From the IMG/VR virus record IMGVR_UViG_3300032117_000118, positions 1 to 29,262 of that record: a stretch of 29,262 bases of DNA. The stretch is one strand, 5' to 3'. Positions within the stretch are counted from its first letter, which is position 1, and each line of letters begins with the position of its first letter. The notes below the pieces were generated by a model, which saw nothing but the letters and a program-made list of their open reading frames with translations, was not told where the DNA came from and searched no databases. The stretch comes from a virus. This document shows, piece after piece, positions 2,697 to 28,654 of the stretch. The position numbers and the translations under genes are program-made.

Positions 2697-3223
2697 GTAC
2701 CGAAGAGAAGAAGCCGCTGAAACTCGACATCGGGTGCGGCAAGAACAAGGCAGAAGGGTTTACGGGTGTCGATTCGATCGCCTTTGACGGCGTGGACATC
2801 GTCATGGACGCCAGTAAGCCGGACTGGCAGTGGGCGGATGGCGAGGTCGACGAAGTGCATTGCAGCCACTTCATCGAGCACCTGACCAACAACGAGCGCA
2901 TCGTGTTCTGGAACGAACTGCACCGCGTCCTGAAGAAGGGCGGTCAGGCTCGGATCATCACGCCGCACTGGTCGAATGCCTGCGCCTACGGCGATCCGAC
3001 CCACCAGTGGCCTCCCATGTCCGAGTGGGCGGTCTACTACCTGAACAAGGACTGGCGCGAGGTGAACGCCCCTCACGCCCCCCTGAAGTGCGACTTTGAC
3101 TTCGTCATTGGCGGCTCGTGGGATGGGTGGCTAGAGACCCGAAATCAGGAAATGAAGATGTTCGCGATGGGTCGCTACATCAATTCATACCGCGATTTGA
3201 TCATTACGCTCACCAAAAAGTGA
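2693..3223 (+). CDS. Class I SAM-dependent methyltransferase
   Basis: A 176-residue protein with SAM-binding motif I as LDIGCGKNK (11-19), an acidic residue at the end of strand 2 (GVDS, D27), and VDEVHCSHFIEHL (52-64), which is common in small Rossmann-fold methyltransferases. ATG at 2693 is chosen over upstream in-frame starts because GGAGG precedes it and it overlaps the dehydratase stop as ATGA. With the two upstream genes it forms a three-gene carbohydrate-type cassette, so a sugar or glycolipid substrate is plausible; nucleic acid or protein methylation cannot be excluded. It is the last gene before a palindrome and hairpin region. Confidence 0.82.
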   Translation: MSTEEKKPLKLDIGCGKNKAEGFTGVDSIAFDGVDIVMDASKPDWQWADGEVDEVHCSHFIEHLTNNERIVFWNELHRVLKKGGQARIITPHWSNACAYGDPTHQWPPMSEWAVYYLNKDWREVNAPHAPLKCDFDFVIGGSWDGWLETRNQEMKMFAMGRYINSYRDLIITLTKK

Positions 3224-3224
3224 A

Positions 3225-3239
3225 GTAATAGCCTATTAC
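3225..3239. promoter_or_regulatory. 15-bp palindrome, possible operator
   Basis: GTAATAG-C-CTATTAC is a perfect inverted repeat with seven-base arms and a one-base centre, two bases after the methyltransferase stop. It differs in sequence from the operator family of the right-hand early region. It may be a protein-binding site for control of the virion genes downstream, or simply the base of a larger RNA structure with the hairpin that follows. No regulator can be assigned. Confidence 0.4.
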
Positions 3240-3244
3240 GGTAT

Positions 3245-3270
3245 TCCCGGCGGTGGAAAAGCCGCCGGGA
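3245..3270 (+). terminator. GC-rich hairpin, possible terminator or RNA-processing structure
   Basis: TCCCGGCGG (3245-3253) and CCGCCGGGA (3262-3270) form a perfect nine-base-pair stem around the loop TGGAAAAG. There is no T-tract after it, so efficient intrinsic termination is doubtful. It separates the modification cassette from the connector gene at 3347. The remaining bases to 3346 contain TATGAT and TAGAAT hexamers without a convincing -35 at normal spacing. Confidence 0.5.
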
Positions 3271-3346
3271 GTGTGTATGATTTGGTAGGAAATTCTGAGA
3301 CTGGGGTAGAATTCCGAGCAGCATTCTTTCGCAATGGGGCGGGCTG

Positions 3347-4033
3347 ATGGCTACGAGCAACACATACGCCTTCAATCCGGGGCTTGGAGAGTCCACGCTC
3401 TATGCGTTCAATCTGTGCGGGATCCGGCAGTCTGCGCTACTTCAGGAGCACCTCGAAAGTGCCCGCATGGCGACGAACATGCTTCTGGGCCGGTGGAGCA
3501 GCCAAGGCGTTAACCTCTGGGCGGTAGACCTGCAATGCGTCAACCTGACGCAGGGCGTCTGCACCTACAGCGTGCCTTCCAACACCATCGTGATGTTGGA
3601 CGCCTACATCCGCCAGAGCACCGGCAGCGTCGTTGACCGCATCATCATGCCGATCAGCCGCACGGAGTACGCCTCGTACCCCAACAAGGCGCAGCAGGGC
3701 TTTCCGACGACCTTCTGGTTCGACCGCCTCCTGTCGCCCACCGTGACCCTCTGGCCCGTACCGGACGGCACCGTGTCCCAGTTGCGCTACTACCGCGTGC
3801 GTCAGATTCAGGACGGTGTCTTGGCCGACGACGCGCAGGTCGAGGTGCCGTACTACTTCTTGGAAGCCTTCGTCTTTGGCCTAGCCCAACGACTGGCGAT
3901 GATCTGGGCACCCGACAAGGTTGCCATGCTGAAGCCTCTGGCCGACGAATCCTATGCTATCGCTGCCGCTCAGAACATTGAGACCGCAGCCCAATATATA
4001 TCGCCCACGATCTCCTCCTACTTCAGGCCGTAA
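3347..4033 (+). CDS. Head-to-tail connector, P22 gp4-like
   Basis: A 228-residue protein whose N-terminal part (about residues 15-55: ALLQEHLESARMATNMLLGRW and the following SQGVNLW) matches the helical pattern of P22 gp4-type head-completion/connector proteins, which bind under the portal and help seal packaged DNA. The middle is beta-rich and the C-terminus helical (LEAFVFGLAQRLAMIWAP). It is longer than P22 gp4 (166 residues). It opens the virion block after a hairpin-containing gap. The start is ATG at 3347; the upstream GGGGCGGG is a poor match to a ribosome binding site. The portal gene, normally near, is not in the window. Confidence 0.7.
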   Translation: MATSNTYAFNPGLGESTLYAFNLCGIRQSALLQEHLESARMATNMLLGRWSSQGVNLWAVDLQCVNLTQGVCTYSVPSNTIVMLDAYIRQSTGSVVDRIIMPISRTEYASYPNKAQQGFPTTFWFDRLLSPTVTLWPVPDGTVSQLRYYRVRQIQDGVLADDAQVEVPYYFLEAFVFGLAQRLAMIWAPDKVAMLKPLADESYAIAAAQNIETAAQYISPTISSYFRP

Positions 4034-4036
4034 GCC

Positions 4037-4789
4037 ATGGGCTACGCCTCACGAGCAGGTCGGGCGAGGACGAATGCCGCCAACCCGCAAGCGCACGCTA
4101 TTTGCGACCGCTGCGGGTTTCGGTACAACTTCGTCGACCTGACGTGGCAGTTTGAGTGGCGCGGAGCCACCCTCCAGAACATCAAGATTCTGGTCTGCAA
4201 CACCTGTCTAGATACACCGCAGGAGAACGTCCGGGCCATTGTTATCCCGGCCGATCCGACGCCTATCGTCAACGCTCGCGTGCAGGACTTCGTCGCGGCT
4301 TCGACGGACGATATTGCCTTCGCGGGGTCCGTCATCGACCCGAAGACAGGCATCCCGATGCCGTCCCAGAGCGTTCTGGCCGACAATGCCGGGAACAATC
4401 TCGTGGTGCAGCCCATCGGCCCCAATCCGAATGGCGTGGGCGATGGCCTGACGCAGCAGGCGTTGATGCCTCAGTTTGAATCGACCGCCTACAGCGTCCT
4501 GCTGCCGGTGGCGTCGGTTCTGGCTAACGGGACGACCACGATTACGGTCACCTGTAGCGCCCCTCACGGCCTCTCGACCGGAGCGGCTATCTCGGCCCTC
4601 GGCCTGAGCAACAAGGCCGCAAACGGGTTCTACACGGTCACCGTGACCACGGCGACGGCGTTTACTTACCGGATCAGCCAGATTTCGCCCATCGCGGCGG
4701 GCTCCTTGCTGACCTCGACGACCCGAATCGTCACCGCCTATGTGACCGGCCCGTACAACTTCAACCAGATCCCGCAGACGGGTAACTAA
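4037..4789 (+). CDS. Zinc-ribbon-containing virion-type protein
   Basis: The 250-residue protein begins with a basic stretch and a CxxC...CxxC zinc ribbon (C23, C26, C54, C57). The C-terminal half, about residues 155-245, has a beta domain of the kind NGTTTITVTCSAPHGLSTGA, similar to a module in the nozzle-like protein at 8538. It lies three bases after the connector gene and just before small virion-type genes. Comparable zinc-ribbon proteins occur in tail regions of several phages, but I know of no assigned function. A structural or assembly role is inferred from position. Confidence 0.6.
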   Translation: MGYASRAGRARTNAANPQAHAICDRCGFRYNFVDLTWQFEWRGATLQNIKILVCNTCLDTPQENVRAIVIPADPTPIVNARVQDFVAASTDDIAFAGSVIDPKTGIPMPSQSVLADNAGNNLVVQPIGPNPNGVGDGLTQQALMPQFESTAYSVLLPVASVLANGTTTITVTCSAPHGLSTGAAISALGLSNKAANGFYTVTVTTATAFTYRISQISPIAAGSLLTSTTRIVTAYVTGPYNFNQIPQTGN

Positions 4790-4790
4790 A

Positions 4791-5081
4791 ATGGCAAATG
4801 TTGCAATCCCAAACCTGCCCACGGTCACTTCGGTGACGGGTCTGGAGCAGATTCCGGCGGTCCAGAACGGCGTCACGGTACGCCTGACGGCGGCTCAGAT
4901 CGCAGGGCTGACGCCTGTCGGCTCGATTTACACCGTCGCAACTCTCCCGGCCAGTCCGATCAAAGGCCAAAGCGCCTTCGTCTCTGACGCCACGTCCCCG
5001 ACGTTTCTTGGGATCGTGACGGGCGGCGGCTCGACCTTCACCCGTGTCTTTTTCAACGGCAGCAACTGGGTTGCCGGATAG
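4791..5081 (+). CDS. Small virion-associated-type hypothetical protein
   Basis: A 96-residue protein. The N-terminus (MANVAIPNLPTVTSVTGLEQ) and the motif VRLTAAQIAGLTP resemble the short segments phages use at the start of tail or fibre proteins. The C-terminus (STFTRVFFNGSNWVAG) resembles the end of many fibre-tip or baseplate modules. It starts one base after the preceding stop codon and has no strong ribosome binding site, so it is probably coupled. It could act as a small decoration, chaperone or stand-alone fibre module. No catalytic motif is seen. Confidence 0.6.
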   Translation: MANVAIPNLPTVTSVTGLEQIPAVQNGVTVRLTAAQIAGLTPVGSIYTVATLPASPIKGQSAFVSDATSPTFLGIVTGGGSTFTRVFFNGSNWVAG

Positions 5082-5089
5082 GAATCACC

Positions 5090-5398
5090 ATGGCTAACAC
5101 CTATACAACCACAGTCACCTCACTAGAGACAGCGACGGTTAACGGCCTCGATAACGTCGTCGTCGTTATCAATTGGCAGATCAGTGGTACGGACGGCACG
5201 AACACGGTCTCCTACAACGGCTCCAATGTCATTGGCGCGCCGGACCCAACCAATTTTGTGGCGTACTTTAGCCTGACGCAGGCACAGGTACTGGCGTGGA
5301 TCCTGAATCCACTGACCGCGACCGCCATGGCGAATATCGATCAGGCACTTGCTCTAATGTCCAACCCACCGGCACCGACGCCGCTTCCTTGGGGCTAA
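5090..5398 (+). CDS. Small conserved phage-type protein of unknown function
   Basis: A 102-residue protein starting MANTYTTTVTSLETATVNGL, with alternating hydrophobic residues in VVVVINWQISGTDGTNTVSY that suggest a beta sandwich. It then has an Ala/Leu-rich helix (FSLTQAQVLAWIL) and a Pro-rich tail ending in PLPWG. The arrangement of a beta domain sensing or displaying a Trp-containing strand, followed by a helix, recurs in small proteins of phage tail regions. AGGA overlaps the upstream stop and positions the ATG at 5090. It lies four bases before the glycine-rich gene. Function is not recognised. Confidence 0.6.
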   Translation: MANTYTTTVTSLETATVNGLDNVVVVINWQISGTDGTNTVSYNGSNVIGAPDPTNFVAYFSLTQAQVLAWILNPLTATAMANIDQALALMSNPPAPTPLPWG

Positions 5399-5401
5399 TC
5401 C

Positions 5402-6049
5402 ATGACTGGCACAGCAACAGTATCGTTTTGGGGCGCTGCAGGCGGCGGTGGTGGCGGGTTTACGCCGCAAACTGTTGTTATTACAACGACAGGCTCGTTC
5501 ACTCAAGCGATCCCCACTGGCGCGACCAACATGGTCATTGAAGTCTGGGCCGGTGGCGGTGGCGGTGGCGGTTACGATACGACCAATACGAATCCCGGCG
5601 GCGGTGGCGGTGCGGGTGCGTATGCCATTACTGCAACCGCTTACAACGTCAGCACGGCGTCGGGGCAGACAATTGTCGGTTCGGTTGGTGCGGGTGGTTT
5701 GGGTGGCGCGTCAAATCTTAGCGGCGGTAATAACGGCTCAATCGGAACGTCGTCGCTCATCAATACATCGGGAACTTACGCAAGCATCAATGCGATTACT
5801 GTTAACCCCGGAAATTTTGGTAACAAGGGATCGGTAGGAACAGGTGGTGCCGGTGGTACAACAACAACCGCAACCAACTGGACATCGACGGCAGGTGGTA
5901 ATGGACAGTCGGGAACAACAACAGGAGCGGGTGGTATTCCTGTTACCGGTGTACATGGAGGCCCTTATGGCGGAGGCGGCGCGGGTGGCGCGGGTACAGG
6001 TACTGCGCCGTCCGGATCTAACGGCGCCGTCGTCTTCTACTTCACTTGA
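5402..6049 (+). CDS. Glycine-rich tail adhesin-like protein
   Basis: A 215-residue protein dominated by Gly. A beta module (TTGSFTQAIPTGATNMVIEVW) leads into Gly runs (AGGGGGGG, GGGGGAGAYA), followed by spaced GG pairs and the terminal strand GAVVFYFT. This pattern of a small beta module followed by polyglycine segments matches phage glycine-rich tail proteins, where stacked polyglycine-II helices form a receptor-binding tip. A shorter Gly run near the N-terminus (GAAGGGGGG) looks like a second copy of the motif. It follows the small protein by three bases. Receptor binding is inferred from composition and position, not shown. Confidence 0.65.
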   Translation: MTGTATVSFWGAAGGGGGGFTPQTVVITTTGSFTQAIPTGATNMVIEVWAGGGGGGGYDTTNTNPGGGGGAGAYAITATAYNVSTASGQTIVGSVGAGGLGGASNLSGGNNGSIGTSSLINTSGTYASINAITVNPGNFGNKGSVGTGGAGGTTTTATNWTSTAGGNGQSGTTTGAGGIPVTGVHGGPYGGGGAGGAGTGTAPSGSNGAVVFYFT

Positions 6050-6057
6050 GATCAATC

Positions 6058-6348
6058 GTGAAAACATTCATCGCGTTGATTGCTGTCGGAGTGGTCACCT
6101 TCTCCGGCTGCTCAAGTTCATCCAACGCGCCCATTCCGGTCGCGGTCGTGACGCCTTCTTTCTGGGCGCCTAACACCTCGTTCCCCACGAATGCCGACAT
6201 CAACTTTTCCGTCTCGGGCGTGGTGTTCCACGCCGTCGCCACGACGGGAGGGAAGACAGGCGCATCGCAACCCGTCATCCCCGTAAACGGAACTGCTAAA
6301 GACGGCACCGTCGTGTGGCAGTACTCCGGGCCGGGCGCAGCCGAATAA
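6058..6348 (+). CDS. Predicted lipoprotein, start of lysis cassette
   Basis: From GTG at 6058 the protein has 96 residues and a clear N-terminal export signal: MKTFIALIAVGVVTFSGC, with the lipidation Cys at position 18 (lipobox TFSGC; Phe at -3 is not ideal). Ser at +2 favours the outer membrane in a Gram-negative host. A TTG at 6046 overlapping the previous stop is an alternative start but would put charged residues before a normal signal peptide. The mature part is Ser/Pro-poor and beta-like, unlike Pro-rich Rz1. It precedes a single-TM protein and a holin, so an outer-membrane spanin-like role is possible but unproven. Confidence 0.65.
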   Translation: MKTFIALIAVGVVTFSGCSSSSNAPIPVAVVTPSFWAPNTSFPTNADINFSVSGVVFHAVATTGGKTGASQPVIPVNGTAKDGTVVWQYSGPGAAE

Positions 6349-6361
6349 CCAAGGAACCATC

Positions 6362-6598
6362 ATGGAGTTCAATCCATTGGATACGCAGAAACTTATGAGA
6401 GCGTCAGCAGGCTCACCAAGAGACCTTATGGGGGTTCTACTCGCCATTCTGGTCGCGCTTATCGCATGGATTGGCACTTCGTTGATCAATCGCGTCGATC
6501 AGTTGGCAGAGAACTTCAATTCCTACGCTTTGAGAATGGAAAACCGCGTGACTGCCATCGAGCAGAAACTGCAGACCGTCACCAAAAAGGATCCATGA
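6362..6598 (+). CDS. Single-pass membrane protein with coiled coil
   Basis: A 78-residue protein with one strong transmembrane segment (about 23-42, MGVLLAILVALIAWIGTSLI) and a C-terminal amphipathic helix of about 35 residues with heptad-like spacing (VDQLAENF, ENRVTAIEQKLQTV). It lies between the lipoprotein and the holin and shares ATGA with the holin start. Candidates are a short inner-membrane spanin subunit, an antiholin or a second holin. The coiled coil is short for spanning the periplasm on its own. AAGGA lies upstream of the ATG. No sequence signature decides between these roles. Confidence 0.65.
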   Translation: MEFNPLDTQKLMRASAGSPRDLMGVLLAILVALIAWIGTSLINRVDQLAENFNSYALRMENRVTAIEQKLQTVTKKDP

Positions 6599-6936
6599 TG
6601 TTCAAGATGCTGTCTCAGATTCCCAAATTCTTTGAATTGTTCAAGGAAGGTAAGGAAGTCGCTGATCCGGTGACGTGGAAGAATCGCACGATTGCGACCA
6701 ACGCAATCCTTGCGCTTCTGGGCACGTTACTGGCCTTGGGTAAGGCGTTTGGGTTCAACGTGGAGTTGGACAGTGACACCACACAGAATCTGGCGGCGGG
6801 CGTTGTGGCTATCGTTACTGCTTTTAACGCAGTCATGCACACCATTACGTCAGCAAGGGTTGGCGTGTCACCCAACAGCGGCAGTGGTCCCACCGAAGGA
6901 AACGCCGCTGACAGTGATAAGCCTGCAGAAGGCTGA
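6595..6936 (+). CDS. Putative holin, two transmembrane segments
   Basis: A 113-residue protein with two hydrophobic segments, about 31-53 (RTIATNAILALLGTLLALGK) and 64-84 (LAAGVVAIVTAFNAVMHTIT), and a hydrophilic charged tail. Length, topology and the motif FNAVMHTITSARVG resemble small phage holins, which open the inner membrane to release lysozyme. ATG at 6595 (overlapping the upstream stop) is followed by a second ATG at 6598, a dual start that in some holins yields proteins with different timing; here the two products would differ by one Met only. It lies upstream of the lysozyme gene, as expected. Confidence 0.75.
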   Translation: MMFKMLSQIPKFFELFKEGKEVADPVTWKNRTIATNAILALLGTLLALGKAFGFNVELDSDTTQNLAAGVVAIVTAFNAVMHTITSARVGVSPNSGSGPTEGNAADSDKPAEG

Positions 6937-6979
6937 ATTCGACATTGGATTTTCGTGCAACTTAACTGAGGACTGAACA

Positions 6980-7333
6980 ATGACTTTTTTCGCTACGCTT
7001 GAGCAGGACGTTGCCGCACTCGGCAAGTGGTTCAATGGCAACCCGGTTGGTGCCGCTATCGAGGCTGACTTCAAGGCCGCTGTGGCGGAATTGGAAAGCA
7101 TCGCAGTGGCTGACCTTGAAAATGCGGTCAAGGTAATCGGCCTCGCGGCCCTTACCGGCTTGGCCACGGGCGGCACGGCGGGCGCCATCGCGGCGGGCAT
7201 CGCCTCGGCTGAGACCGAATTCAAGTCGTTGGGTAAGGACGTCACGTCGAAGACGCTGACCACGCTTGTCACGACGGTCGTGAATCAGGTCTCGGCGGCA
7301 ACGACCCCTACGCCGGTGGCTGCGCCGGTATGA
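6980..7333 (+). CDS. Small Ala-rich helical protein in the lysis cassette
   Basis: A 117-residue protein with long Ala-rich amphipathic helices and a Gly/Ala segment (LAALTGLATGGTAGAIAAGI, about 55-74) that is weakly hydrophobic and might associate with membrane. The C-terminus is Thr/Pro/Val-rich. GAGGA precedes the ATG, and the stop overlaps the lysozyme ATG, so translation of the lysozyme is probably coupled to this gene. Similar small proteins lie next to endolysins in other podophages. It could be an accessory holin or lysis regulator; I do not recognise its function. Confidence 0.6.
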   Translation: MTFFATLEQDVAALGKWFNGNPVGAAIEADFKAAVAELESIAVADLENAVKVIGLAALTGLATGGTAGAIAAGIASAETEFKSLGKDVTSKTLTTLVTTVVNQVSAATTPTPVAAPV

Positions 7334-7761
7334 AAGTCGACGGCGACTGCCTGTCCCTTACCGAAGGCAGTGAGTCATGCCGACTCACTGCCTACCCAGA
7401 TCCCGTGGGCATCTGGACCATCGGTTACGGTCATACCGGCCCGGACGTACATCCGGGTCTGGTCATCACTCGTGAGCAGGCTGAATCGCTTTTGGAAATG
7501 GATCTGGCGCACGCAGAACTTGCCGTGAACACCTACGTTAAGGTGCCGCTCACGCAGCACCAATTCGATGCCCTCGTGGACTTCACCTTCAACGTAGGCG
7601 CGGGCAACTTCTTCAATTCGTCTCTTTTGAAGTACTTGAACGAGAAGAATTACGTTGCGGCTGACGGCGAGTTTAAAAGATGGGATTTGGCGGGAGGCAA
7701 GAAATTGCCCGGACTGACCGCGAGACGTGCCGCTGAAGCGGCGCTGTTTGCGAAGGATTGA
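7330..7761 (+). CDS. Endolysin, phage lysozyme (glycoside hydrolase family 24)
   Basis: A 143-residue T4-type lysozyme that would cleave the MurNAc-GlcNAc bond of peptidoglycan. The catalytic triad fits T4 spacing: E15, D24 and T30 in ESCRLTAYPDPVGIWTIGYG, corresponding to T4 E11-D20-T26. The C-terminal part has the family motif FDALVDFTFNVGAGNF and ends with GLTARRAAEAALF. No signal peptide or SAR anchor is seen, so export should depend on the holin upstream. Its length is slightly below T4 lysozyme (164 residues). It is translationally coupled to the preceding gene by ATGA. Confidence 0.93.
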   Translation: MKVDGDCLSLTEGSESCRLTAYPDPVGIWTIGYGHTGPDVHPGLVITREQAESLLEMDLAHAELAVNTYVKVPLTQHQFDALVDFTFNVGAGNFFNSSLLKYLNEKNYVAADGEFKRWDLAGGKKLPGLTARRAAEAALFAKD

Positions 7762-7763
7762 CC

Positions 7764-8534
7764 ATGGCTAATACGACGCCACTGACTTACAACGGGTACG
7801 TTAACCAGATCGCCACCATGGCCGTCGTCAACACGACGACGGTCAACGGTGTCGTTCAGGGCGTCGATGCGGCCTTCAACGCGATCCTCCCGCAGATGCT
7901 GAACTATGCGGAACTCCGCATACAGCGCGACATGGACCTACTGCCGTCCATTGTCTCGCGCAGTTACACGCTGACGCCCTACACCAACCTGCTTCAGATC
8001 TCGGTAGACGACTTTGTCACCGTGCAGACGATGCAGATCACTCAGCCGTACCTGCCTGCCGTCACGCTTCAGCCGGTATCGAAAGAATACCTGCAGATGG
8101 TGTTTGGAAATCCCAACACGCTTGGCGTCCCATCATTTTTTGCGATGACGGGCGGCGATCTGGCGTCGGGTGGAAGCACCTACAACAACATCCTGTTTGG
8201 CCCGTACGCTGACGAGATCTATCCCGTCACGCTCTACGGCACCATCCGCACGCCGACGCTGTACGAATTCGCCAACACGGCGCAGGCGAACACCTCGACA
8301 ACGTTCATCAGCACCTACCTGCCCGATCTTTTGATCATGGCTTCCATGGTTTACATCAGTGCGTATCAGCGCAACTTCGGTCGCATGAGCGACGATCCGG
8401 CCATGGCACAGAGTTACGAGGGTCAGTACCAGAGCCTCAAGAACGCGGCGGTCATCGAGGAGTACCGGAAGAAATTCCAAGGCTCCGCGTGGTCGTCTAT
8501 GTCTGTCCCGCAGGGCGCGACGCCGACGAGATAA
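7764..8534 (+). CDS. Head-tail adaptor-like structural protein
   Basis: A 256-residue protein starting at ATG 7764, chosen over TTG 7758 because AAGGA lies six bases upstream. The N-terminal helix (ILPQMLNYAELRIQRDMDLL), the central motif TLQPVSKEYLQMVFG, and the C-terminal block (YLPDLLIMASMVYISAYQ, then SDDPAMAQSYEGQYQSLKNA) match a widespread family of phage adaptor proteins that sit between portal and tail. It directly precedes the nozzle-like gene. It shares only general layout with the gp4-like protein at 3347, so the phage may carry two ring-forming connectors. The name is family-level inference. Confidence 0.7.
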   Translation: MANTTPLTYNGYVNQIATMAVVNTTTVNGVVQGVDAAFNAILPQMLNYAELRIQRDMDLLPSIVSRSYTLTPYTNLLQISVDDFVTVQTMQITQPYLPAVTLQPVSKEYLQMVFGNPNTLGVPSFFAMTGGDLASGGSTYNNILFGPYADEIYPVTLYGTIRTPTLYEFANTAQANTSTTFISTYLPDLLIMASMVYISAYQRNFGRMSDDPAMAQSYEGQYQSLKNAAVIEEYRKKFQGSAWSSMSVPQGATPTR

Positions 8535-8537
8535 GAC

Positions 8538-10871
8538 ATGCCCCACTCAAGCGTAAAACTGAAGCCCGGAGTTGATCTTAACGAGACGCCCACCCTCAAC
8601 GAGGCGGGCTTTTCGTTCAGCAACCTTATTCGCTTCATCTACGATTCGACTTTGGGTGCCCTTATTCAAAAATTGGGCGGTTGGACGAAGTTTTACCCTT
8701 ATTCGTTCAGCCAAACCATTCGGGCTCTTTGGGCTTGGGAGACGACGCAGTCCGTGGCATTCCTTGCCATCGGTACGCAATCTCCAAGCCCTTCTACGGC
8801 GGCGTCTCTTTTGGTCATTCCGCAGGGTGGCAACTCTCAGGACATTACGCCGACCTATACAGTCAACAACATTGCGGCATCCGTTAACGCGCCAACGCTT
8901 GGAAGCCCGTACTTTGTCATCAATGACTCAGTCGTAACGGGCATCACCAGTTACGACTCTGTTTACATCGCGACGCACATCTCGGTGGGCGGCGTCATCC
9001 TTTTTGGCCTGTACCAATGCGATCCCAATGGGTATCTGAGTTCTGGCAGTTACTCTGTCATGGCCACGGACATCCTTGGCAATGCGATAGGCCCTAATCC
9101 GATCATAGAAGCCACTACGGCCGCGAGCGGCACAGGGTCCACGGCGACCATCTCTTTTGCCGCGCTGCCTGTAGCGCCTCCCGTGGGCTCTACCGTCACG
9201 GTAGGCGGCGGAATCTCCCCAAGCGGATATGCCGGTACTTATACGATAACGGCGTCGTCCACTACGTCTGTTTCGTACGCAAACACCACGACCGGCTCGC
9301 AGACGGTGGCGGGGACCATTTCCATCCTGAACGCGGCGTCTCTCGCGCAGTTCACGACGACATCCAACTCCTCCATCGTCACAGTGACCCTCCTGAATCA
9401 TGGCTATTCGGTGGGATCCACTTACCCCGTATTGATATCGACTTCGTTGAATGGCGTCACGCTGTACGGAAATTACATCGTTCAATCCGTCGTCAACGTG
9501 GATCAGTTCACCATCACCGTAGGCAATACGGCGACAGGAGCAGGATCCGCCTACATCAACGGCAATCAGGCTCGATACATTTACAATTTTGGCGTGGGCG
9601 CCATCCCTGCCGGTACCGGGTACGGCATTGGGACGTATGGCTCAGGGGGCTACGGAACAGGCACGGCCGTTACGCCGTCTACCGGGACAAAAATTGTCGC
9701 CTACGACTGGACGCTTGACAACTGGGGCGAGATTCTGATCGGCGTTGCCGTCAACGATGCGGGGTACAGCGGTACACCTTACTCGCCCATTTACGCATGG
9801 AACGGCTCAGGCGGATCGCCAACGGCAGTCACGATCCCCAACTGCCCTCCGGTCAATGAAGGCGTCTTTATGGCGATGCCTCAGCGCCAATTGGTTGCCT
9901 ACGGAACAACCTTTACGGGCATTCAGGATCCGCTTTTGATTCGTTGGTGCGACGTAAACAATTTCAGCGTCTGGGTTGGGCAGATTACCAATCAGGCCGG
10001 GTCCTACCGACTTCCCAAGGGCTCTAAAATTGTGGGGGCCATTCAGGGTCCTCAACAGGGCCTGATATGGACGGATATTGGCCTTTGGGCGATGCAGTAC
10101 GTCGGCACCCCCGACATTTACTCGTTCAACGAAATCGGATCGGGCTGCGGCTTGATTGCCAAGAAGGCTGCAGCGGCCCTTAACGGCATCGTCTATTGGA
10201 TGGGGCCATCGCAGTTCTACATGCTCTCTGGGAGCGGCGTAGAGCCATTGCCTTGCCCTGTCTGGGACGTGATCTTCCAGAACCTTGATCAGACCAACTT
10301 ATCCAAAATTCGCGTTGCGGTGAATTCGCGCTTTGGCGAGGTCAGTTGGTACTACCCGACGACGACCAGTAATGGCGAAGTATCAAATTACATCAAATTT
10401 AACGCTTACCTAAACGTCTGGGACTTCGGCTCGCTTGGAAGAACGGCTTGGATTGATCAGTCGGTTCTGGGACCGCCCATTGGTGCCGACCCTTCTTCTG
10501 GGTATATCTATCAGCATGAAACGTCTACAGACGCAGATGGACAGCCTTTGTTGGCGTCTTTTCAGACGGGTTACTTTGCTCTAAACGAAGGCGATCTGAA
10601 GACGTTTGTTGATCAAGTCTGGCCCGACATGAAGTGGGGTTACTACAACGGGTCGCAAAACGCGACGGTCAACCTGACTTTTTATGTGGCCGACTATCCG
10701 GGTCAAACGCCGATTCAGTATGGGCCCTATTCGCTAACTCAGCAGACAACCTTCATCACGCCAAGGTTTAGGTGCCGTCTCGTCTCGATAAGTCTTTCGA
10801 GTAACGATGTCGGTACTTTCTGGCGATTGGGTAACATCCGTTATCGAAGTCAGCAGGATGGTAAATTCTAA
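8538..10871 (+). CDS. Tail nozzle/hub-like protein
   Basis: A 777-residue beta-rich protein. The N-terminus (SVKLKPGVDLNETPTLNEAG, then SNLIRF and LGGWTKFYP) is a signature seen in podovirus nozzle or P22 gp10-like tail hub proteins. Residues about 190-340 hold inserted small beta modules (for example ISPSGYAGTYTITA and NHGYSVGSTYPV). The later part has Trp/Gly-rich blades (GGYGTGTAV, YDWTLDNWGEILIG, WCDVNNFSVW, GLIWTDIGLWAMQYVG) fitting a propeller-like fold. It lies three bases after the adaptor and overlaps the next gene by one base. It would form the DNA exit tube beneath the adaptor. No enzymatic site is visible. Confidence 0.75.
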   Translation: MPHSSVKLKPGVDLNETPTLNEAGFSFSNLIRFIYDSTLGALIQKLGGWTKFYPYSFSQTIRALWAWETTQSVAFLAIGTQSPSPSTAASLLVIPQGGNSQDITPTYTVNNIAASVNAPTLGSPYFVINDSVVTGITSYDSVYIATHISVGGVILFGLYQCDPNGYLSSGSYSVMATDILGNAIGPNPIIEATTAASGTGSTATISFAALPVAPPVGSTVTVGGGISPSGYAGTYTITASSTTSVSYANTTTGSQTVAGTISILNAASLAQFTTTSNSSIVTVTLLNHGYSVGSTYPVLISTSLNGVTLYGNYIVQSVVNVDQFTITVGNTATGAGSAYINGNQARYIYNFGVGAIPAGTGYGIGTYGSGGYGTGTAVTPSTGTKIVAYDWTLDNWGEILIGVAVNDAGYSGTPYSPIYAWNGSGGSPTAVTIPNCPPVNEGVFMAMPQRQLVAYGTTFTGIQDPLLIRWCDVNNFSVWVGQITNQAGSYRLPKGSKIVGAIQGPQQGLIWTDIGLWAMQYVGTPDIYSFNEIGSGCGLIAKKAAAALNGIVYWMGPSQFYMLSGSGVEPLPCPVWDVIFQNLDQTNLSKIRVAVNSRFGEVSWYYPTTTSNGEVSNYIKFNAYLNVWDFGSLGRTAWIDQSVLGPPIGADPSSGYIYQHETSTDADGQPLLASFQTGYFALNEGDLKTFVDQVWPDMKWGYYNGSQNATVNLTFYVADYPGQTPIQYGPYSLTQQTTFITPRFRCRLVSISLSSNDVGTFWRLGNIRYRSQQDGKF

Positions 10872-25004: not shown

Positions 25005-25280
25005 ATGCAAGCAATCAGAACAAAGTACATCGGCCCGACCGACACCAAGGGGTCGCGCATTCAGGCCAAGTGTGAGGTCAAGACGATCTACCTGCCGTAC
25101 GACTGGGCTCTCGACAGCGACGACAACCACCGCAAAGCGTGCAACGCTCTGCGTGTGGTCATGGGATGGTTGCCGTCAGCAGGCCGCATCTACGACGCGC
25201 CCATGGTCGGCGGCTGGTTCGACGGCTGCATTTACTGGGTTTGGAAAAACGAATTTCTCGATACGGAGGCACTGTCATGA
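25005..25280 (+). CDS. Small conserved-looking protein, unknown function
   Basis: A 91-residue protein (MQAIRTKYIGPTDTKGSRIQ, AKCEVKTIYLPYDWALDSDD, then NHRKACNALRVVMGW and GGWFDGCIYWVWKNEF). The opening IRTKYIGPTDTKGSRI is a motif I associate with small proteins widespread in phages and mobile DNA. ATG at 25005 has GGAG six bases upstream; ATG at 24999 is too close to that site. Function is unknown. The stop overlaps the next start. Confidence 0.65.
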   Translation: MQAIRTKYIGPTDTKGSRIQAKCEVKTIYLPYDWALDSDDNHRKACNALRVVMGWLPSAGRIYDAPMVGGWFDGCIYWVWKNEFLDTEALS

Positions 25281-27175: not shown

Positions 27176-28654
27176 ATGAACGCAGTCGCCACCGCAGTCG
27201 CCACCGCAGTCGCCACCGCCACCCGCTCGTGGTCCCCGTACCAGTCGTCCATCTTCGACTTCGTCGAGAACGGCACCGGCAACGCTGTCGTCGAGGCCGT
27301 CGCGGGCAGCGGCAAGACCACAACCCTCGTCGAGGCCTTCAACCGCATCAAGGGCAACGCCGTGTTCTTGGCCTTCGGTAAGGCCATCGCGACGGAGTTG
27401 GTCAGTCGCGGCGTCAACGCCAAGACCTTCCACTCGCTGTGCTTCAGCCCGGTGCTCCGCTTCTGCGGCATCAACAACATCGACAAGGACAAGTTGCGCC
27501 GCATCATCGCCGACAACCTGACCGACGCCGACGTCCGCACCTACGGCGCGTTCATCAACGAACTCGTCAAGTTGGCCCGCGAAGCCGGTGTCGGCTGCCT
27601 CGTCGAGGACAGCGAGCAGGTCTGGCTTGATATCGCCGAGCACCATGACCTTGAAGTCGAGGGCGACATGGCTCGCGCCATCCACCTCGCCCGCCGCCTG
27701 CTGCAGGCGTCGAACGAGTCGCCCGAGTGCGACTTCACCGACCTCCTGTACCGCTCGGTTCTGGAGGGCATCAGCCTGCCGAAGTTCGACTTCGTGTTCG
27801 TCGACGAGGCGCAGGACACCAACGCCATTCAGCGTGCGATCCTCCGCAAAATCTCGCACGCAGGCACCCGAATCGTCGCCGTCGGCGACCCGCGCCAAGC
27901 GATCTACGGCTTCCGTGGCGCCGACAGCCGCAGCCTCGACCTGATCACCGAGGAGTTCAACGCCATCCGCCTGCCGCTGACCGTGTCGTACCGCTGCCCG
28001 AAGTCGGTCGTCGCCTTCGCCCGCCAGTGGGTGTCGCACATCGAGTCCGCCCCGGCGGCCGCCGAAGGCGTTGTGGGCAACCTCGGCACCGAATGGAACG
28101 GTGCCATGTTCGACCCAACCGACCTGATCATCTGCCGCACGACCAAGCCCCTCGTGGCTCTGGCGTACCGCATGCTCCGCAGCGGTCAGGGCTGCAAGAT
28201 CCTCGGCAAGTCGATCGGCGAGGGCCTGCAGCGCCTGATCACCCGCATGAACGCCAAGGGCATCGACGCGCTCGTCGAGAAACTGCGTAAGTGGGAAGAG
28301 CGCGAGGTCGAGAAGGCCAAGGCTCGCGGCAACGAGGCCAAGATCGCCGCCATCCAAGATCAGGCTGAGTCGATCCTCTGCCTCATCGAGAGCCTGCCTG
28401 AGACCGACCGTACGGTCCCGGCGCTGCTCCGCCTGCTCGACACCATCTTCGATCAGGAGCGCGGCGTGACGACCCTCGCGACGATCCACAAGGCGAAAGG
28501 CTTGGAAGCCGACCGCGTGTATTGGCTCAACAGCAGCCAGTGCCCGTCCAAGTGGGCGCGCAAGGACTGGCAGAAGGAGCAGGAGGCCAACCTGTGCTAC
28601 GTCGCCGCAACCCGCGCCAAGGCGGAGTTGTACCTCATCGAGGAGGAGCGCTGA
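27176..28654 (+). CDS. UvrD/Rep-like SF1 DNA helicase
   Basis: A 492-residue ATP-dependent helicase with superfamily 1A motifs in order. These are motif I EAVAGSGKTTT (40-50, K47), Ia-like VFLAFGKAIA, and motif II FVFVDEAQDTN (D210-E211). Motif III is VGDPRQAIYGFRGAD (236-250), and motif IV VSYRCPKSVV. Motif V is TIHKAKGLEADRVYWL and motif VI LCYVAATRAKAELYLI. It is shorter than host UvrD (about 720 residues), as many phage helicases are. The N-terminus carries the in-frame repeat AVAT three times. It would unwind DNA in phage replication or recombination. Confidence 0.92.
   Translation: MNAVATAVATAVATATRSWSPYQSSIFDFVENGTGNAVVEAVAGSGKTTTLVEAFNRIKGNAVFLAFGKAIATELVSRGVNAKTFHSLCFSPVLRFCGINNIDKDKLRRIIADNLTDADVRTYGAFINELVKLAREAGVGCLVEDSEQVWLDIAEHHDLEVEGDMARAIHLARRLLQASNESPECDFTDLLYRSVLEGISLPKFDFVFVDEAQDTNAIQRAILRKISHAGTRIVAVGDPRQAIYGFRGADSRSLDLITEEFNAIRLPLTVSYRCPKSVVAFARQWVSHIESAPAAAEGVVGNLGTEWNGAMFDPTDLIICRTTKPLVALAYRMLRSGQGCKILGKSIGEGLQRLITRMNAKGIDALVEKLRKWEEREVEKAKARGNEAKIAAIQDQAESILCLIESLPETDRTVPALLRLLDTIFDQERGVTTLATIHKAKGLEADRVYWLNSSQCPSKWARKDWQKEQEANLCYVAATRAKAELYLIEEER
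27182..27217 (+). repeat. 12-bp tandem repeat, three copies, at the helicase start
   Basis: GCAGTCGCCACC occurs three times without change and a partial fourth unit follows. Each unit encodes AVAT, so gains or losses keep the reading frame. The repeat begins two codons after the start codon. Confidence 0.85.

Follow-up and report, generated by a model that had tools for sequence, protein, structure and literature searches.

A candidate o-spanin gene nested out of frame in the holin-like gene of a viral lysis cassette

The lysis cassette analysed here contains a gene, nested in the +1 frame of a holin-like gene, that is conserved and constrained as a protein and that probably encodes the o-spanin of the phage. 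The nested gene was absent from the preliminary description of this DNA and was revealed by comparing relatives of the holin. The window, that is, the whole stretch of DNA under study, is a 29,262-base IMG/VR virus record, possibly a fragment, in which the cassette, encoded entirely on the + strand, lies inside a block of virion genes (Table 1). We give a probability of roughly 0.55 to the explanation that the nested product is an o-spanin, lipidated at Cys22 and acting with an inner-membrane partner, for which the transmembrane (TM) coil protein encoded at 6362 is the likeliest candidate in the window phage. The preliminary description had instead put forward the lipoprotein encoded at 6058 as a candidate outer subunit paired with the 6362 protein, a pairing that is probably wrong.

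Table 1. Features of the lysis cassette and its surroundings in the window
Feature	Position	Strand	Remarks
First adaptor-like gene	3347-4033		Pfam SU10_adaptor, E 2.3e-9
Glycine-rich, probably tail, protein	5402-6049	+	Pfam Gly_rich_2, E 4.4e-8; phrog_356 minor tail protein, E 8.8e-5
Lipoprotein	6058-6348	+	GTG start, 96 aa; signal peptide, FSGC with Cys18
Single-TM coil protein	6362-6598	+	78 aa; one hydrophobic stretch, residues 24-42
Holin-like protein	6601-6936	+	Two TM stretches; 3' half overlaps the nested gene
Nested gene, o-spanin (Rz1-type) candidate	6773-6976	+	67 aa, GTG start; read in the +1 frame relative to the holin gene
Helical 117-aa protein	6980-7333	+	Regular neighbour of the nested gene
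GH24 endolysin	7330-7761	+	Pfam Phage_lysozyme PF00959, E 3.1e-48; phrog_7
Adaptor-like virion protein, downstream	7764-8534	+	Weak match to phrog_2941 virion structural protein, E 0.0014
Relative of a 'phage stabilization protein'	8538-10871		Related protein in MW202675

The location of the lysis genes between virion-type genes, as initially described, is borne out, and all the open reading frames (ORFs) named at that stage are present at their coordinates and answer to their descriptions. The interval between the first adaptor-like gene and the cassette is occupied by four genes (4037-6049). The endolysin has no TM stretch in a hydropathy scan and should, therefore, need a holin. Its placement is not special to the window phage, because a cell-wall-enzyme gene just 5' of adaptor/'phage stabilization protein' genes is found also in MW202675 (annotated as chitinase A) and MW202711 (lysozyme). 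The holin-like protein matches the phiLC3-type holin family TIGR01598 with an E-value of 0.0017 (18.6 bits, below the cut-off of 39.7) and, weakly, the holin family phrog_297 (E 0.0098), with no match to Pfam holins. Neither this protein nor the 117-aa protein had a tblastn match among 50,697 phage records, and scans of genome contigs with the holin-like protein and with the 6058 lipoprotein returned nothing.

The GTG start of the nested gene is located seven bases 3' of a GGAG motif, at holin codon 58, near the middle of the holin gene, and the frame extends 40 bases beyond the holin stop codon, ending three bases 5' of the ATG of the 117-aa gene. The holin relatives comprise 26 loci, several of them near-identical contigs, and each has an ORF in the +1 frame. 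Across 13 genotypes, the frame is open in all; 12 of them have GTG or ATG aligned with the start of the window, and the remaining one (L124) has a TTG two codons upstream. The overhang past the holin stop spans 31-115 bases in the 13 genotypes and in each carries a G-x-x-C motif a few residues before the stop. The open frame alone is weak evidence, because synonymous shuffles leave the overlap open in 10%-73% of trials per genotype and the genotypes are related. The pattern of silent substitution is more telling: differences at the four-fold sites of the holin gene amount to 0.58 before the overlap versus 0.30 within it (31 and 38 columns, respectively; permutation P 5e-5). No comparable drop was seen in two control genes, namely, the 117-aa gene (0.54/0.53, P 0.34, 10 genotypes) and the lysozyme gene (0.67/0.61, P 0.05, 11 genotypes), and the holin amino acids vary slightly more within the overlap (0.36) than before it (0.31). 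A profile of 14 nested proteins matched all 26 holin loci, one of which (L128) is cut by the contig end and many of which contributed to the profile in the first place, as well as L106, L205, L206 and L210. The last three, which were not among the training rows of the profile and were reached via the 117-aa protein, matched with E-values of 4.7e-12 to 8.4e-12, L205 and L206 being near-alike; their holins are 45%-46% identical to that of the window, and the nearest nested start lies two or six codons upstream.

The nested product (66-78 aa in the 14 rows of the alignment) begins with basic residues, followed by a hydrophobic core some nine residues long, a Ser-Cys-Thr motif and a short domain with two more cysteines. 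Besides the start, S21, C22, T23, C32, P34, G59 and C62 are invariant in the 14 rows; Ser-Cys is found also in L205, L206 and L210, with Met in place of Thr in L205 and L206. In the window, 46 residues follow from Cys22 onward, including the conserved Cys32 and Cys62, which corresponds to a short predicted periplasmic domain, as in o-spanins. A hydropathy scan detected no C-terminal TM segment in either the nested product or the 6058 lipoprotein, unlike in unimolecular spanins. The strict lipobox [LVI][ASTVI][GAS]C is present in none of the 14 rows, the residues preceding the cysteine being TQS, MPS, MQS, TPS or TAS. Deviating lipoboxes do occur in o-spanins, and an unusual one, AWAC, has been shown to work, according to the spanin survey of Kongari and colleagues (Kongari et al., 2018; PMC6139136). 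Apart from the off-consensus lipobox, the nested product fits a lipoprotein.

A permissive six-frame scan for lipoprotein signals, in which the records were searched in pieces of up to 20 kb and ORFs spanning piece ends were missed, recovered the nested ORF in all 11 records. It was the sole match in G003 (46 kb), G012 (36 kb) and G015 (26 kb) and was accompanied only by 6058 in the window; the other records (G001, G002, G004, G009, G011, G014 and G016) yielded one to seven further matches each, mostly short and on the opposite strand. The same scan found the lipoprotein-like ORFs used for comparison in all six loci (L018, L028, L212, L214, L209 and phage KL1). The 'only hit' results depend on the scan settings, given that, even in a loosened version, neither the G015 nested ORF nor the lipoprotein-like ORFs in L209 and L214 were detected; with a 10-residue core, the scan missed the nested ORF of the window itself. 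A lipoprotein-like 44-aa ORF on the - strand of G011 (25142-25276) lies far from the lysis genes. Searches of PHROGs and Pfam with six nested proteins gave no significant match: the best in PHROGs was to phrog_29066, of unknown function (E 0.0057, residues 20-38 of the L123 protein), and the L088 protein matched phrog_16495, 'Rz-like spanin', with an E-value of 0.11. Beyond the signal peptide, profile comparison of the nested family with the Rz1-like proteins encoded by L018, L028 and KL1 revealed no similarity, and tblastn against the 50,697 phage records produced one match (E 1), between unrelated genes.

Two alternatives deny the nested product a lipoprotein identity. An untranslated by-product of the codon and amino-acid constraints on the holin would be in line with the shuffled sequences, in which the overlap can stay open; nevertheless, the constraint on silent sites, which is confined to the overlap and missing from the 5' part of the holin gene, the conserved tail outside that gene and the retention of a start as GTG, ATG or TTG make such an origin hardly credible. 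Less easily dismissed, yet in our estimation still unlikely, is an antiholin-like lysis regulator of the RI type, released into the periplasm by signal peptidase I and bonded by disulfides. A regulator would be in keeping with the poor lipobox, the co-location with the holin and the two conserved mature cysteines; against it stands the invariance of Ser-Cys22 throughout the 14 rows and in L205, L206 and L210, for which simple secretion would give no reason.

The search for an Rz/Rz1 pair elsewhere in the relatives speaks in the same direction as the preliminary description, in which the spanin arrangement had been considered non-canonical. The Rz family PF03245 was not detected in any of the 12 relative records searched, up to 63.7 kb in length (in the control genomes, the same profile matched in 3 of 14 and exceeded the cut-off in one), and neither phrog_1275 nor phrog_1026 was detected in seven relative records each (controls, 9 and 12 of 14 genomes, respectively, at a loose limit). 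An Rz/Rz1 pair elsewhere in these relatives is, so far, rejected by these three families. Overlapping Rz/Rz1-like pairs are present between the endolysin and the adaptor in L018 (1795-2025 and 1946-2143) and L028 (2429-2659 and 2541-2777), the adaptors of which are related to that of the window, where the same place is empty; their matches to PHROGs spanins are weak (best E 0.0014).

As regards the partner, the TM segment of the 6362 protein is followed by a coil-like tail, and positive residues are more numerous on its N-terminal side in all five homologues (3 versus 1 in four of them and 2 versus 1 in L106). By hydropathy and charge alone, the protein has the type-II topology with a single N-terminal TM segment of an i-spanin, and it is the sole type-II candidate in the cassette of the window. 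It lacks cysteines, whereas the nested protein has two besides Cys22, which is the i-/o-spanin combination reported as the commonest in the spanin survey (PMC6139136). Comparison of the window with L092 indicates that both 6362 and 6058 look like real genes, since amino acids differ less than four-fold sites (18% versus 35% for 6362 and 26% versus 74% for 6058). The 6362 protein has no match to Pfam Rz families and an E-value of 0.18 to phrog_4349, 'Rz-like spanin', which weighs little, because such proteins are very diverse; the best tblastn match among the 50,697 phage records had an E-value of 7. Relatives of 6362 are present in 5 of the 13 genotypes, none was found in 9 of 10 records, and in all eight genotypes devoid of 6362 no convincing type-II ORF was detected in a region beginning 1,500 bases 5' of the holin and ending 300 bases past the endolysin; consequently, 6362 is not a general partner. 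The TM scan is a plain hydropathy window, and the simple gene caller keeps antisense artefacts; what the scan listed in these genotypes were the nested ORF, ORFs lying out of frame in tail genes, fragments of the holin or of the 117-aa protein and, in L122, part of a long tail-type ORF. L026 and L123 have small proteins with a TM segment nearer the C-terminus. In the window phage, 6362 may be the partner of the nested product or, alternatively, a holin accessory protein or antiholin.

The latter role is part of a different assignment, in which the nested o-spanin would work with the 117-aa protein, or with the holin. The 117-aa gene lies directly 3' of the nested gene in 10 of the 13 genotypes, and its relatives in L214 and L209 are directly preceded by stand-alone lipoprotein-like ORFs (3675-3911 and ending at 3959, respectively) unrelated in sequence to the nested family. 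Furthermore, Burkholderia phage KL1 and L028 both have Rz/Rz1-like pairs after the endolysin and nevertheless encode a TM-coil protein, before the holin in KL1 and before the endolysin in L028. The KL1 protein, annotated as a lipoprotein, resembles 6362 in its place before the holin, short N-terminus, single TM segment and coil, and displays weak profile similarity to it (hhalign probability 39.5%, E 3.1e-4); it is related to the L028 protein, which matches phrog_462. KL1 differs from the window phage in having its own pair annotated as Rz-like spanin. We nonetheless regard the 117-aa protein as a rather doubtful partner: its version in the window has no TM segment at the 1.6 limit (borderline in L120), its gene was not found in L106 despite the nested gene there, lies on the 5' side of the holin gene in L026 and L123, and in L212 is accompanied by an overlapped Rz/Rz1-like pair (4709-4942 and 4857-5060). 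The AlphaFold model of the protein is all helical (mean pLDDT 67.9). In L207 and L208, the lipoprotein-signal scan flagged no lipoprotein. A generalization of this assignment, whereby an o-spanin in the holin gene would define a fourth two-component spanin architecture, with the 117-aa protein or the holin rather than a type-II Rz-like protein serving as the partner in most of these phages, is tentative and similarly doubtful; if true, it would tie outer-membrane disruption to the holin's own message.

Even less probable is the arrangement in which 6058 and 6362 are separate o- and i-spanin genes upstream of the holin and the nested gene has some other role. Its appeal lies in the signal peptide of 6058, with a longer core and a lipobox nearer to the consensus than in the nested product (FSGC; ISGC in L092), in the charge distribution of the 6362 homologues described above and in the contact of Pfam O_Spanin_T7 with residues 5-30 of 6058 (E 0.008, 16.6 bits, cut-off 25), although the latter covers mainly the signal peptide. 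In the viral collection, 6058 was found in six loci, corresponding to two genotype groups, by a pattern scan sensitive to close relatives only, and 6362 occurs without it in L011, L088 and L106; furthermore, the same cassette contains a more widely conserved candidate, the nested gene. The C-terminal stretch of 6058, W..NT..GKTGA..P..GT..DGTVVW, can be aligned with a cyanophage protein, in an internal part, and with four other proteins at their C-termini, namely, a tail spike from Acinetobacter, two proteins of Gordonia phages and a capsid fusion of a Microbacterium phage; none of these matches is significant alone (E 0.3 to 4), and the protein of Streptomyces phage SendItCS, one of the six examined, does not share the pattern. 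The AlphaFold model of 6058 (mean pLDDT 44.9) was not used. On account of its distribution and domain, 6058 is rejected as the conserved spanin subunit; as far as its sequence indicates, it is probably an accessory lipoprotein in its own right, with a domain of the virion-surface type and perhaps a role at the cell surface.

Returning to the preferred reading, in which the nested gene encodes the o-spanin, we infer that this gene would be translated and its product exported, lipidated at Cys22 and, owing to the Thr at position +2, directed to the outer membrane, where Cys32 and Cys62 could form disulfides. Upon opening of the inner membrane by the holin and cutting of the wall by the GH24 endolysin, the nested o-spanin and its inner-membrane partner would fuse the two membranes; in the window phage, the type-II 6362 protein would be the likeliest partner and the 117-aa protein the second.

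The nested gene shares several properties with the embedded Rz/Rz1 genes of lambda and T7, as portrayed in the spanin survey (PMC6139136): a small lipoprotein-like product is encoded within a second lysis gene, in its +1 frame, starts near the middle of that gene and has periplasmic cysteines, which are predicted here. It differs in that the host gene is not an i-spanin gene but a two-TM holin-like gene, past which the frame extends by 31-121 bases, in that the lipobox is off consensus and in the lack of detectable sequence similarity. The separated PseT.3/PseT.2 genes of T4, described in the same source (PMC6139136), provide a parallel for separate i- and o-spanin genes, with an i-spanin devoid of cysteines and an o-spanin that has two; in contrast to T4, the o-spanin candidate overlaps the holin gene. 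A second product of a holin gene is also known from antiholins made from or within holin genes (PMC9144972 and PMC9025707). However, lambda-type antiholins are dual-start products of the same frame (PMC9671378), whereas the nested gene occupies a different frame and its product looks exported.

According to the spanin survey (PMC6139136), the o-spanin gene may lie inside the i-spanin gene, overlap it or stand apart from it, and no spanin was found in ~13% of the genomes examined. Embedded o-spanins are known inside i-spanin genes, and searches of the openly accessible literature revealed none encoded within a holin gene; the holin-nested o-spanin would be a variant not met there. If such o-spanins are real, annotation that looks beside Rz misses them, and some phages considered to be spanin-less may not be so. 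The sharing of the same bases by a holin TM segment and a signal peptide would represent a compact case of overlapping coding, and the nested gene renders the question of the inner-membrane partner directly testable.

Several minor observations concern the neighbouring genes. The glycine-rich protein encoded just upstream of the cassette looks near-identical in L113 (5320-5979) and L116, where the flanking genes are different, and half of its residues differ in the otherwise close L092, a pattern read as module exchange. Around the endolysin, L088 carries a hydrophobic 66-aa ORF (8896-9096) between the 117-aa gene and the endolysin gene, which is absent from the window, and L208 encodes an endolysin-like 249-aa ORF (3139-3888), the C-terminus of which resembles the end of the holin. 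Finally, a perfect 12-base tandem repeat of 3.2 copies (27181-27219) encodes a VATA repeat at the start of a helicase-like ORF (27176-28654).
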